This document shows, one piece after another, positions 6,001 to 51,662 of a stretch of 64,000 nucleotides of DNA. The notes under the pieces are model-generated. The model was not told the origin of the DNA and ran no database searches. It was given only the letters and a program-made list of their open reading frames with translations. The stretch spans positions 124,001 through 188,000 of the forward strand of contig SCRE01000005.1 in the NCBI GenBank assembly GCA_004297935.1, written 5' to 3'. Source of the DNA: Microbacteriaceae bacterium (GTDB taxonomy: Bacteria; Actinomycetota; Actinomycetes; Actinomycetales; Microbacteriaceae). Both the position numbers and the translations under genes were made by a program. Each line of letters starts with the position of its first letter. Positions within the stretch are counted from its first letter, which is position 1.

Positions 6001-6109
6001 CGGTGGTCGAGTAGCGAGCGTGCGAGCGTATCGAGACTTCGCAGGACTACGGGATCGGTATGGGTATGGGTCTCGATACACTCGCTGGCGCTCGTTACTC
6101 GACCACCGG
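6001..6109. repeat. palindromic repeat family A, copy 1 (hutU-hutI intergenic)
   Basis: ggtggtcgagtagcgagcg...tcgagac / gtctcgatacactcgctggcgctcgttactcgaccacc inverted arms. Confidence 0.9.
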
Positions 6110-11409: not shown

Positions 11410-11550
11410 TTGGTCGAGTAGCGCACGAGCGCAGCGAGTACGCGTATCGAGACCCCTGTAGATCGGCTGGGGGTCTCGATACGCTCGCTGGCGCTCGCTA
11501 CTCGACCACCGGTGTTGCAGTCTCGATACGCTCGCTACTCGACCACCGGT
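11410..11550. repeat. palindromic repeat family A, copy 2, with duplicated right end
   Basis: ttggtcgagtagcgcacgagcgcagcgag...cgtatcgagacc / ggtctcgatacgctcgctggcgctcgctactcgaccaccggtgttgcag then a shortened second copy of the right arm. Confidence 0.9.
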
Positions 11551-12962
11551 GTTGCAGCGGCTCGACCGCCGACGATCACACGCGTCACGTCGGATGCGGT
11601 CGCGACCATCGGCAACTGAGCCGGCTCGGCGCCGCTGGTGCGCAGCGAGCTCGGGTCCAATTCGACCAGATCGCAATATTCGCCGACCGCGATCCCTGCA
11701 CCCGCGCCGTCGGCACCGGCGCCCAAGCCGAGTGCGCGATAGCCGCCGGCGCCGCCCAGGTGCCACAGCTGCGCGGGACTGAACCGACCCCGCTGACCCG
11801 ATGCCAGCCGCTCGCCGTATTCGAGCCCGCGCAGCTCGAGCAGGGGATCGATGAAGGCGTTCTGGTCGGATCCGATCGCAAGGTGCGCGCCGGCATCCGC
11901 CAGCCGTCGGGCCGGACCGATGCCGTCACCGAGGTCGGCCTCGGTCGTCGGACACATCACAACCCCGACGGATGCCTCGCCGAGCATACGAATGTCCTCG
12001 TCGGTCAGATGCGTGGCGTGCACGGCGTTCAGCCGCGGGGTGAGCAGCCCCAGCTCCGCGAGCAGCGCGGTGGGGGTGCGCCCGTAAGCGGCCAGGCAGT
12101 CGAGGTTCTCTCGCGGCTGCTCGGACAGGTGGATGTGCAGTGGCACGTCTGAGGGCAGCTCGCGTGCGATCTCGGCCATCGCCTCGCGCGGAACCGCGCG
12201 CACGGAGTGAATCGCGGCACCCAGCGTGACCAGCGGACGGCCGGCGAGCGCCTCACGCAGGTGCGTCCACCGCGTCAGCCAGGCGGACGCCGAGCCATCC
12301 GAGAATCGACGCTGGCTCGGCTCGGGCGCGCGACCGATCCCTCCGGCCAGATAGCACGTGTCGAGCAGCACCAGCCGAATGCCCGCGGCCTCGGCCGCGT
12401 CAGCCAGTGCCAACTCCATGCCGTGGGCCGGATCGTATGGCGTTCCGTCGGGCCGGTGATGCACGTAGTGGAACTCGCCGACAGCCGTGTAACCGCAGGC
12501 GACCATTTCCGAGAAGACACCGGTCGCGACCTCTCGATAGCGGCCGGGATCCAGTATGTCCGCAGCAGCATACATCGACTTGCGCCACTGCCAGAAGTCG
12601 CCGCCGCCGTCGTGAGTGCGGCCGCGCAGCATGCGGTGGAAGGCGTGCGAGTGCGCGTTGCCGAAGCCGGGCGCGACGAGCCCGAGGGTGAGCGTCGCCT
12701 GTTGGTCGAGTGGGCCGCCCGCGGCCGTATCGAGACGCGCGTCGTGTTGGGGGTTTCCATGCGGGTTTCGATACGGGTCTCGATACGCTCGTTCCTCGCT
12801 ACTAGACCACCGAGTGGGGCCAGGGTCGGCACCCGTCTCAATGCGGGTGATGCGGCCTGCGGCATCCGCCTCGATCAGAACGTCGTCGACGAAGCGTTCA
12901 CCCAGCCAGGCGCGGGCGGCACGGACGATCACGGCGACTCCCTCAACCCGCGACTTCTTCAA
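11535..12962 (-). CDS. hutF: formimidoylglutamate deiminase with ~35-aa in-frame insertion
   Basis: LVAPGFGNAHSHAFHRMLRGRTHDGGGDFWQWR, GVVMCPTTEADLGDG; TTG start in ORF track, real start uncertain. Confidence 0.92.
   Translation of the reverse strand: MKKSRVEGVAVIVRAARAWLGERFVDDVLIEADAAGRITRIETGADPGPTRWSSSEERAYRDPYRNPHGNPQHDARLDTAAGGPLDQQATLTLGLVAPGFGNAHSHAFHRMLRGRTHDGGGDFWQWRKSMYAAADILDPGRYREVATGVFSEMVACGYTAVGEFHYVHHRPDGTPYDPAHGMELALADAAEAAGIRLVLLDTCYLAGGIGRAPEPSQRRFSDGSASAWLTRWTHLREALAGRPLVTLGAAIHSVRAVPREAMAEIARELPSDVPLHIHLSEQPRENLDCLAAYGRTPTALLAELGLLTPRLNAVHATHLTDEDIRMLGEASVGVVMCPTTEADLGDGIGPARRLADAGAHLAIGSDQNAFIDPLLELRGLEYGERLASGQRGRFSPAQLWHLGGAGGYRALGLGAGADGAGAGIAVGEYCDLVELDPSSLRTSGAEPAQLPMVATASDVTRVIVGGRAAATPVVE
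12703..12811. repeat. palindromic repeat family A, copy 3 (inside hutF)
   Basis: ttggtcgagtgggccgcccgcggccgtatcgagac ... gtctcgatacgctcgttcctcgctactagaccacc within the hutF reading frame. Confidence 0.85.
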
Positions 12963-16810: not shown

Positions 16811-16910
16811 TGCAGTCGGGCGACGAGGCCGACGGCGTCGACGATGCCGCGCTGAAAGTCGGCCGGGAAACAATGATCAGGGCTTTTGCACTGTCGGCAG
16901 ATGCGCCGCC

Positions 16911-16994
16911 GGTTGGTCGAGTAACGAGCGTTGGCGAGTGTGTCGAGACCGGGTAGGCCGGTCTCGACACGCTCGTTCCTCGCTACTCGACCAC
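16911..16994. repeat. palindromic repeat family A, copy 4
   Basis: ggttggtcgagtaacgagcg...tgtcgagacc / ggtctcgacacgctcgttcctcgctactcgaccacc. Confidence 0.9.
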
Positions 16995-17061
16995 CGCAAT
17001 GGTGCGACCGGACGACTGTGCACAGGCCCTGAACAATGATCTTGGTTTCGTGCAGCGATAG

Positions 17062-23980: not shown

Positions 23981-25525
23981 TTACAGGTCCGCGAACGCGT
24001 CATACGGATGCTCGACGGCATCCGCAATCATCCGTAGGAAGCCGGCGGCCGTTCCGCCGTCGCACACCCGGTGGTCGAACACGAGCGAAAGCTGCACGAT
24101 CGTGCGCGGCAGGATCTGGCCGTCGATGATCCACGGGCGCTCGAGCATCCGCCCGATGCCGAGGATCGCGACCTCCGGATGGTTGATGATCGCGGCACTG
24201 CCGTCGACGCCGAGGGTGCCGTAGTTGTTGATCGTGAACGTCGAGCCCGTGAGCTCCGCCGCGCTCGCGGTTCCGTAGCGTGCCGCGCTCGTGAGCCGCG
24301 CGAGTTCGGCGTCGAGTTCGCGCAGGCTGAGTGTATTCGCTGCGCGGATGACCGGCACGACGAGCCCGCGCGGGGTGTCGGCTGCGACGCCGAGGTTGAC
24401 GCCGTCGAACTCGATCAGGCTCGCGGCATCCGGCGACAAACGGGCGGCGAGCATCGGGTAGCGGGCGAGCGCCGTCAGTGTGAACCGGGCGATCAACGCC
24501 ACGATCGACGGATGCCTCTCCCCGATCCGGATGCGCCGCCGCAACTCCCGCAGTTCGGTCGCGTCGACGTCGACCCAGACAGTCGCCTCGGGGATTTCGC
24601 TGCGGCTGCGCGTCATGTTCGCCGCAACCGTGCGGCGGAACAGGCTGAGTTGAGTTGTGGTCCGGATCGTGAGGCCGGTGCGTGAGTCGACGTCGGCGGG
24701 GGTGTCCGGGACGGGTGCTGTGGTGCCGGTGAGCGTGCCCGCCGACGCCTGCTCGACCGGTGCAGCCTCGACGTCGTGCCGCGTGATGACGCCGGCGGGG
24801 CCGGAGGGGTGCACAGTCGCGAGATCGACGCCTCGCACTCGGGCGAGTTGGCGCACGACCGGGGAACTGACCGCGATGGGTCCGGTGCGTCGCGCGTCGG
24901 TGTCGTCACCGGTGGTCGAGCCGCGACCTGAGGAGGCCGCCTGAGGCCGTCTGGAAGGATCGCGAGGCACGAGCGTATTGCCATCGTTGGTCGAGTAGCG
25001 AGGCACGAGCGTATCGAGACCCGTGCCTGAGATCTCTTGGTCTCGGATCTCTTGGTCTCGATACGCTTCGCTACTCGACCACCGCGGCCCGCCGGCGTTC
25101 GCCACGCGACGGCGACGGCGCGCGCTGTGCGCGGTCTCGGTCGTGCCGTAGCCGACGAGCACGTTGCCCGAGCCCTCCGCTTGTTGATTGGGGAGGCCGC
25201 CCGCGGCCGTCTCGAAATCGCCGTCATGCGCGTCTGCGTCGACACCGACGGCAGCGACCGGCACCTCCGCCGCTTCGGCAACCGGCTCTTCCGCAACTGA
25301 AACAAGCGGCTCACCGACGGTGAGCGCTTCGCCCTCCGTGCCGTGCAGCGTCTCGACGACGCCTGCGAACGGGCTCGGCACTTCGACGACGGACTTGGCC
25401 GTCTCCACCTCGGCGATCGGCTGATCGACCGCAATCGTGTCGCCGACAGCGACGAGCCAGCGCACCAACTCGGCCTCGGACAGTCCCTCGCCGAGGTCCG
25501 GCAGTGTGAAGACGCGTGTGGTCAT
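23981..25525 (-). CDS. 2-oxoacid dehydrogenase E2 (lipoamide acyltransferase), branched-chain type likely
   Basis: DLGEGLSEAELVRWLVAVGD lipoyl domain; SPVVRQLARVRGVDLATVHPSGPAGVITRHDV PSBD; VFDHRVCDGGTAAGFL catalytic motif. Confidence 0.95.
   Translation of the reverse strand: MTTRVFTLPDLGEGLSEAELVRWLVAVGDTIAVDQPIAEVETAKSVVEVPSPFAGVVETLHGTEGEALTVGEPLVSVAEEPVAEAAEVPVAAVGVDADAHDGDFETAAGGLPNQQAEGSGNVLVGYGTTETAHSARRRRRVANAGGPRWSSSEAYRDQEIRDQEISGTGLDTLVPRYSTNDGNTLVPRDPSRRPQAASSGRGSTTGDDTDARRTGPIAVSSPVVRQLARVRGVDLATVHPSGPAGVITRHDVEAAPVEQASAGTLTGTTAPVPDTPADVDSRTGLTIRTTTQLSLFRRTVAANMTRSRSEIPEATVWVDVDATELRELRRRIRIGERHPSIVALIARFTLTALARYPMLAARLSPDAASLIEFDGVNLGVAADTPRGLVVPVIRAANTLSLRELDAELARLTSAARYGTASAAELTGSTFTINNYGTLGVDGSAAIINHPEVAILGIGRMLERPWIIDGQILPRTIVQLSLVFDHRVCDGGTAAGFLRMIADAVEHPYDAFADL
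24986..25083. repeat. palindromic repeat family A, copy 5 (inside the E2 gene linker)
   Basis: gttggtcgagtagcgaggcacgagcgtatcgagacc ... ggtctcgatacgcttcgctactcgaccacc within the E2 reading frame. Confidence 0.88.
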
Positions 25526-26580
25526 CGTGCGTCATCCCCGCGCTCGTCGCCACCGCGCCTGTCAAACCACTGCAACTCGTCGACCGTGTCGAGCACACGG
25601 TCGACGCCCGGCAGGTAGAACTTCTCCAGCTTCGGCGGCGGAAACGGGATGTCGAACCCGGTCACCCGGCGCACGGGTGCCGAGAGGTAATGGAAGCAGC
25701 GCTCTGTCACCCGTGCAACGATCTCGGATGCGACGCTCGCGAACCCGGGCGCCTCGGCGACCACGACCGCGCGCCCTGTCGAGCGCACCGCCGCGCAGAC
25801 CAGCTCGTCGTCGAACGGCGTGATCGTGCGGATGTCGATCACCTGCAGGCTGCACCCTTCGGCAGCGGCGGCCTCGGCCGCGGCCAGTGCGACAGGAACG
25901 GACGGTCCATATGCGATCAGCGTCGCATCCGTCCCCTCCCGCGCGATGCGGGCGCGTCCGATCGACGGCAGCGGGGCCGCGACGTCGACCTCGCCGCTTG
26001 TCCAATACAGCTTCTTCGGCTCGAGAAAGACGACCGGATCGGGCGAGGCGATCGCGGCGCGGAGCAGGCCATAGGCATCCTGCGGGTTCGACGGCGACAC
26101 GACGGTGAGCCCCGGCGTGTGCGCGTAGTACGCTTCGGACGAGTCCGAGTGGTGCTCGACCCCGCCGATTCCGCCGCCATACGGAATGCGGATGACCATC
26201 GGCAGCCGCACGGCCCCGCGTGTGCGGTTGCCCATCTTCGCGACATGATCGACGATCTGCTCGAACGCCGGATACGCAAAGGCGTCGAATTGCATCTCGA
26301 CAACAGGGCGCAGCCCGTTCATCGCCATGCCGACTGCCGTGCCGACGATGCCGGCCTCCGCCAGCGGCGTGTCGAAGCAACGCGTCTCGCCGAACCGGGC
26401 GGTCAGCCCGTCGGTGATGCGGAACACGCCGCCGAGCGTGCCGACGTCCTCGCCGAAGACCAGCACGGAGGCGTCCGTCTCCAACGCGTCCGCCAACGCT
26501 CGGTTCAGCGCCTGCGCCATCGTCATCGTGGGCAGCCGCGTCGTCTCCGCTGTGCGGTCGGTGTCATGAAGCAGTGTCAT
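25522..26580 (-). CDS. 2-oxoacid dehydrogenase E1 beta
   Basis: TMAQALNRALADALETDASVLVFGEDVGTLGGVFRITDGL. Confidence 0.95.
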   Translation of the reverse strand: MTLLHDTDRTAETTRLPTMTMAQALNRALADALETDASVLVFGEDVGTLGGVFRITDGLTARFGETRCFDTPLAEAGIVGTAVGMAMNGLRPVVEMQFDAFAYPAFEQIVDHVAKMGNRTRGAVRLPMVIRIPYGGGIGGVEHHSDSSEAYYAHTPGLTVVSPSNPQDAYGLLRAAIASPDPVVFLEPKKLYWTSGEVDVAAPLPSIGRARIAREGTDATLIAYGPSVPVALAAAEAAAAEGCSLQVIDIRTITPFDDELVCAAVRSTGRAVVVAEAPGFASVASEIVARVTERCFHYLSAPVRRVTGFDIPFPPPKLEKFYLPGVDRVLDTVDELQWFDRRGGDERGDDAR

Positions 26581-51545: not shown

Positions 51546-51662
51546 TGGTCGAGTAGCGAGCGCCAGCGAGCGTATCGAGACCCGAATCGAGACCCCCAAT
51601 AGGTCGACTCATGAGGTCTCGATACGCCGGCTCGCTTCGCTCGCAGGCCACTCGACCACCGG
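51546..51662. repeat. palindromic repeat family A, copy 6 (paaH-paaZ intergenic)
   Basis: ctggtcgagtagcgagcgccagcgagcgtatcgagacc ... ggtctcgatacgccggctcgcttcgctcgcaggccactcgaccacc. Confidence 0.9.

Follow-up and report, generated by a model that had tools for sequence, protein, structure and literature searches.

Palindromic inserts that lie in frame within protein-coding genes have previously been described mainly in Rickettsia and in some REP-rich bacteria. The rickettsial elements RPE-1, RPE-4, and RPE-6 are palindromes found in frame in unrelated genes, often as dimers or groups, where they account for 20–30 amino acids or more and are tagged with CGTC at one end (PMC3733652). Intragenic GTAG/CGTC REPs also occur as dimers inside genes, many of them helicase and DNA repair genes, and the extragenic REPs favor 3′ ends and convergent gaps; actinobacteria are unmentioned in that study (Di Nocera et al., 2013; PMC3733652). 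REPINs are inverted REP doublets that, together with their spacer, fold into one long hairpin and are associated with RAYT transposases, REP doublets being mostly of this inverted kind (Bertels and Rainey, 2011; PMC3116915).

Here we describe a palindrome family found in a window of 64,000 nucleotides (the whole stretch of DNA analyzed) from the genome of a Microbacteriaceae bacterium, and compare it with these systems. Like the RPEs, it forms palindromic inserts in frame in unrelated ORFs, genes of essential type among them, however its sequence and phylum are different, most of its copies are intergenic, and sister species bear different palindromes at equal gene sites. High copy number, a mainly extragenic location, and a preference for convergent gaps are shared with the GTAG-REPs, but the GTAG that is terminal in REPs is here internal, following six conserved bases (GGTYGA-GTAG), and a search of actinobacterial genomes gave no Y1 transposase. 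The unit is a doublet of imperfect hairpins, one inverted relative to the other (of 57 two-copy clusters, 51 are “+-” and 5 are “-+”, with “++” or “--” one each), and in this respect the family is REPIN-like, although RAYT is missing. The family works like the RPEs and intragenic REPs, while the transposase test sets it apart from the RAYT-dependent REPINs and its sequence from the RPEs. A literature search for the palindrome sequence found no description of it.

Palindromes in the Linker of an E2 Acyltransferase

The host gene encodes the E2 acyltransferase of a 2-oxo acid dehydrogenase complex, with the E1 beta and E1 alpha genes located upstream (Table 1). Its product carries three Pfam domains, Biotin_lipoyl (residues 6–76), E3_binding (220–253), and 2-oxoacid_dh (289–510), and the palindrome insert occupies residues 148–179, in the linker between the lipoyl and E3-binding domains. 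The initial annotation had pointed out a palindrome-encoded peptide in this linker, PRWSSSEAYRDQEIRDQEISGTGLDTLVPRYSTN, and the ORF encodes it exactly as claimed. The inverted hairpin pair translates as RWSSSEAYRD...GLDTLVPRYSTN, and the comparison of linker lengths that had been proposed shows a linker lengthened by the repeat, at 135 residues vs. 49–119 in 22 orthologues of the family. Because the two hairpins form an inverted pair, the 100-nt E2 region folds as a single inverted repeat, far better than its dinucleotide shuffles (z = -7.8); one palindrome unit alone folds no better than shuffles. Terminal inverted repeats and target duplication are absent around the E2 copy (24988–25081), and an Rfam search of positions 24700–25600 returned only a chance-level match outside the palindrome, with none above the gathering score.

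A further related piece had been placed at about 25181–25220. It was located there as a degenerate relative of the palindrome, and a second copy lies on the other side of the hairpin pair; in the sister species (G001, the other genome of the same genus), DLDTAALRQAQGPGLLDQQ stands in the place of the first. The peptide RPSRRP(R/Q)AASSG(TVA) recurs in unrelated proteins (L106:1765-3462, L121:1863-4670, L123:2346-6200, and at this second copy in the window), its source being a GGCCGCC-core relative of the palindrome.

Table 1. Palindromes, related repeats and host genes in the window.
Feature	Position	Strand	Remarks
Intergenic inverted pair	6005–6104	6005–6038 +, 6069–6104 -	
Three hairpins at hutF 3′ end	11412–11544	11412–11454 +, 11472–11507 -, 11519–11544 -	
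hutF, formimidoylglutamate deiminase (NF006681)	11535–12932	-	In-frame copies near N-terminus
34-nt hairpin in hutF, LDTAAGGPLDQ	12704–12737	+	2 mismatches in arms
33-nt hairpin in hutF, RWSSSEERAYRD	12776–12808	-	
150-bp MITE-like element with terminal inverted repeats	16880–17029		Holds pair 16915–16950 / 16960–16992
2-oxo acid dehydrogenase E2 acyltransferase, host gene, 514 aa	23981–25525	-	ORF and domain matches
Second copy of degenerate relative, read PSRRPQAASS	24929–24956		86% identical
Half-copy of 33-nt hairpin (GCGAGGCACGAGCGTAT), read NTLVPRD	24962–24978	+	
33-nt hairpin, read GLDTLVPRYST	24989–25021	+ (opposite to gene)	First base at codon position 1
Tandem 15-mer GATCTCTTGGTCTCG x2, RDQEI repeats	25031–25060		Spacer between E2 hairpins
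27-nt hairpin, read WSSSEAYRD	25054–25080	- (gene strand)	First base at codon position 2
Degenerate relative, GGCCGCCCGCGGCC core, read ETAAGGLPNQ	25189–25216		
Intergenic inverted pair	51547–51657	51547–51582 +, 51615–51657 -	

Consensus, Structure, and Genomic Placement

Each hairpin of the family follows the consensus GGTYGAGTA-(variable stem)-GTATCGARACC, of which the 3.95-Mb genome of the Microbacteriaceae bacterium contains 156 copies and the genome of the sister species, with the C form of the arms, contains 348; a reversed-pattern control gave 0 copies. In the window alone there are 11 matches to TGGTCGAGTAGCGAG with at most 2 mismatches, vs. 0.27 expected by chance. The outer arms are almost invariant across copies, whereas in the variable inner stem Watson-Crick combinations at pairs 2, 3, and 5 far exceed what independence would give and are of several types; at the outer Y-R position C-G is replaced jointly by T-A. 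This covariation of the stem means that the hairpin itself is the thing maintained. The GA-opposite-GA in the stem and the bulges could be features readable by a putative binding protein.

About 85% of the palindrome copies lie between genes; of the 184 sampled, 152 are intergenic, and 27 fall within called genes although 87% of the DNA is coding, in a sample of 870 kb whose stretches were partly selected around palindrome copies. On contiguous stretches, 9 of 49 copies in the focal genome are within genes; for the sister species the figure is 6 of 98. Convergent gaps are preferred to divergent ones (24 of 75 vs. 10 of 89, p = 0.002). Genes broken by a copy would escape the in-gene count. Interrupted genes as such a hidden class were rejected after a scan of nine of the genes that flank five close-spaced intergenic copies; those scanned are distinct genes (e.g., gyrB and gyrA) and not halves.

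Some copies are embedded in larger elements that resemble MITEs. Thirty-five of the 184 sampled copies lie within elements of 150–220 bp with terminal inverted repeats, and among about 20 sampled elements of this kind most contain a palindrome pair. Their ends read CAGGGCTTTTTCACAGTC or GGGCTTTTGCACTGTC (elements in L028, L031, L041, L068, L071, L116, L122, and others), and near-matching flanks suggest target duplications of about 8 bp. At L125:5670-5841 the ends are present and the palindromes absent. The likeness to MITEs is confined to these elements, as the great majority of palindrome copies, E2 included, have no such ends. An autonomous partner of the MITE-like elements was not found, and an ISL3 transposase was rejected for this role since the intact ISL3 of the sister species has different ends.

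Genes That Carry Palindromes

Besides hutF, whose in-frame copies had been likened to those of E2, the hosts include a second E2, SMC, Lhr, a DUF3516 helicase, an HrpA-like helicase, HsdM, CysN, CysD, a siderophore-interacting reductase, the tail of an ABC ATPase, and an FAA hydrolase-RraA protein. In total at least 17 genes other than E2 and hutF carry copies across both species, in three favored frames, and a special link between E2 and hutF is not supported. These hosts are functionally unrelated and contain the same repeat, in agreement with the earlier view that unrelated genes share these peptides only through the repeat. As for the frame and orientation that E2 and hutF were said to have in common, the frame does reflect a preference, but the shared orientation is uninformative, being automatic for an inverted pair that reads alike on both strands.

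Most in-gene copies avoid Pfam domains and are located between or beyond them; the HsdM copy is inside the span of the methylase domain, and one of the 27 in-gene copies (in a lipoyl domain, L115) is a chance match. Gene calls came from a simple caller trained in this analysis, and some near-N-terminal copies may precede the true start. In CysD (L107:3131-4258) the hairpin arms have been expanded symmetrically in tandem and in frame, and a similar in-frame arm array is seen in the sister orthologue (L288) of the oxidoreductase L042:13572-15245. Two gene fusions had been candidates for creation by the repeat. Glycerate kinase and allantoinase are joined in a single long ORF in each of the two species (L036:9322-12090 and L293), with a palindrome pair at the junction in the focal genome only; as the sister has the fusion without the palindrome, this origin was rejected, and the FAA hydrolase-RraA fusion was likewise set aside, as it belongs to a known fused family (PRK12764).

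Probable Turnover at Shared Sites

Comparison with the sister species revealed that the specific E2 and hutF peptides are not conserved, other palindromes being present at most equivalent sites. The E2 and Lhr sites carry palindromes in the sister too, and at 11 other in-gene sites compared it is occupied at eight and empty at three, with an occupant mostly of a different palindrome type or frame at the shared sites. For example, the SMC site has RWSSSEERVYRD vs. GGRVASASERIET in the sister, and the hutF site RWSSSEERAYRD..RLDTAAGGPLD vs. GLDTAADGLLD..GRVASASERIET. The sister E2 (L025:7112-10410) is broken by an IS1182-family element that lies inside the palindrome cluster and has in-frame palindromes to its left and right. 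No palindrome is found in the sister in the siderophore-interacting protein, the glycerate kinase-allantoinase fusion, and HsdM, the first of these showing a clean empty site with a difference of 38 codons (114 nt). Few sites were clean enough for target duplications to be sought by comparison with an empty site, since both species have an occupant at most syntenic sites.

We consider it likely that the E2 element is a unit of a REPIN-like mobile family, of which in-gene copies survive only where the protein tolerates them and then turn over under selection for an open frame. The family is presumably mobile and its inserts presumably translated. Copies would land mostly between genes, and a copy within a gene would survive only if tolerated: it would have to lie in a flexible linker or tail, be of a total length that preserves the frame, and be read in one of the few frames that resemble normal coding peptide and codons (GRVA.., WSSSE.., GLDT..). 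Once a permissive site is occupied, palindromes would turn over through further insertions, duplication of arms in tandem, or conversion by the numerous other copies, with selection keeping the frame open.

How the shared sites turn over may also be explained by non-allelic gene conversion or template switching between copies, and not by repeated insertion, an alternative to which we give real weight although we lean against it. Some palindrome copies have the same arms but have exchanged their inner stems, and there are arms duplicated in tandem, such as GLDTGLDTGLDT, and half-conserved sites such as the second E2, in which GLDTRAPSSLVTRP is common to both species and the first half differs, all of which would be expected from exchange between copies. 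On the contrary, clean gains where the sister is empty imply that insertion occurs as well, and the changes of frame at one site (SMC, hutF) require shifted ends that a simple swap does not provide. Some of the shared sites could in part be old insertions reshaped by recombination.

Reading Frames of In-Gene Copies

Random frames among the coding copies, with interrupted ORFs, had been named in the initial annotation as the pattern that would speak against selection for the open frame; the frames are in fact non-random, and the stop-bearing frame is empty. Forward copies within genes are distributed as 29 in the GRVA frame, 14 in the WSSSE frame, and 0 in the frame bearing TAG. For reverse copies all three frames are open, and yet 34 are found in the GLDT frame and 3 in each of the other two (p about 2e-11 against one third). 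The counts for both orientations include sister orthologues and related copies. When restricted by hand to internal and roughly independent reverse cases, 16 of 21 are in the GLDT frame (p = 7e-5). Under a coding model of the genome itself, the used frames come out best and the unused frames negative for most loop types, and the same in-frame pattern is present in other genera. The frame preference of in-gene copies is therefore real, and from it we infer purifying selection on peptide and codons as the simplest reading.

The same bias might instead arise at the insertion step, if the machinery preferred a target in a fixed codon phase of high-GC genes. Both orientations favor a left-end GGT on the codon boundary, and the flanks often have G(G/C)T ahead of GGTCGAG, as such a preference would predict. 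Nevertheless, we regard this as unlikely, given that the WSSSE frame, which is in another phase, accounts for its 14 copies, that the coding model disfavors the unused frames for most loop types, and that at the E2, hutF, and SMC sites the sister species differs in frame or type. It is very improbable that positive selection favors the peptides as a functional module, for instance a linker tag of enzyme complexes; the same peptide types do appear in many proteins, but peptide type and frame are not conserved at equal sister sites, and copies are rare in genes, common between them, and spread over functionally unrelated hosts. Least credible of all is an artifact of assembly, pseudogenes, or spurious ORFs, which the 41-contig assembly, the short and abundant repeat, and the truly interrupted sister E2 might bring to mind, but which is opposed by full-length open frames with intact domains, by palindromes at equal sites in the independent single-contig sister genome, and by the same pattern in other genera.

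Distribution and Search for a Mobilizing Enzyme

With stricter arms, the palindrome is found in 50 of 300 genomes of the family Microbacteriaceae and in 27 of 85 genera, and genomes of one genus differ widely in copy number. Carriers revealed by a scan of named genomes are Agromyces, Leifsonia, Agreia, Rathayibacter, Nocardioides, Aeromicrobium, Flexivirga, and Gordonia, together with Anaerolineales and other Chloroflexota. Loop variants of the focal genome recur in named members of the family. The hairpin arms are common to actinobacteria and Chloroflexota (L147-L258), at loci with a GC content from about 41% to 75%. In a viral collection, one contig had a match, close to the contig end.

Y1/RAYT transposase was detected in none of 41 Microbacteriaceae genomes and none of 13 other carriers labeled actinobacteria (54 in total), and Y1 proteins are present in all 16 carriers labeled Chloroflexota. 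Of 20 Y1 loci inspected, only three have a hairpin nearby and none an adjacent one, and RAYT/Y1 was rejected as the mobilizer. The family is apparently a transposase orphan. As a tentative extension, and one that we hold rather doubtful, the hairpins may be moved by a so far unrecognized enzyme, such that in high-copy lineages the family would be a constant source of new in-frame linker sequence, permissive linkers would be repeatedly re-invaded and rewritten, and sister orthologues would differ in their palindrome-encoded peptides.

Implications

What is new here is a family without recognizable transposase whose in-frame copies occur in SMC, two E2 subunits, HutF, helicases, and sulfate-activation genes. 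For annotation it carries a warning, as the repeat is the source of peptides such as WSSSE..AYRD, GLDT..ARYST, and GRVASASERIET, which give no evidence of homology. The family also opens a search for whatever enzyme mobilizes hairpins in bacteria that lack RAYT, and its measurable frame filter, together with the differing occupants in sister species, offers a test of how selfish DNA becomes protein sequence.
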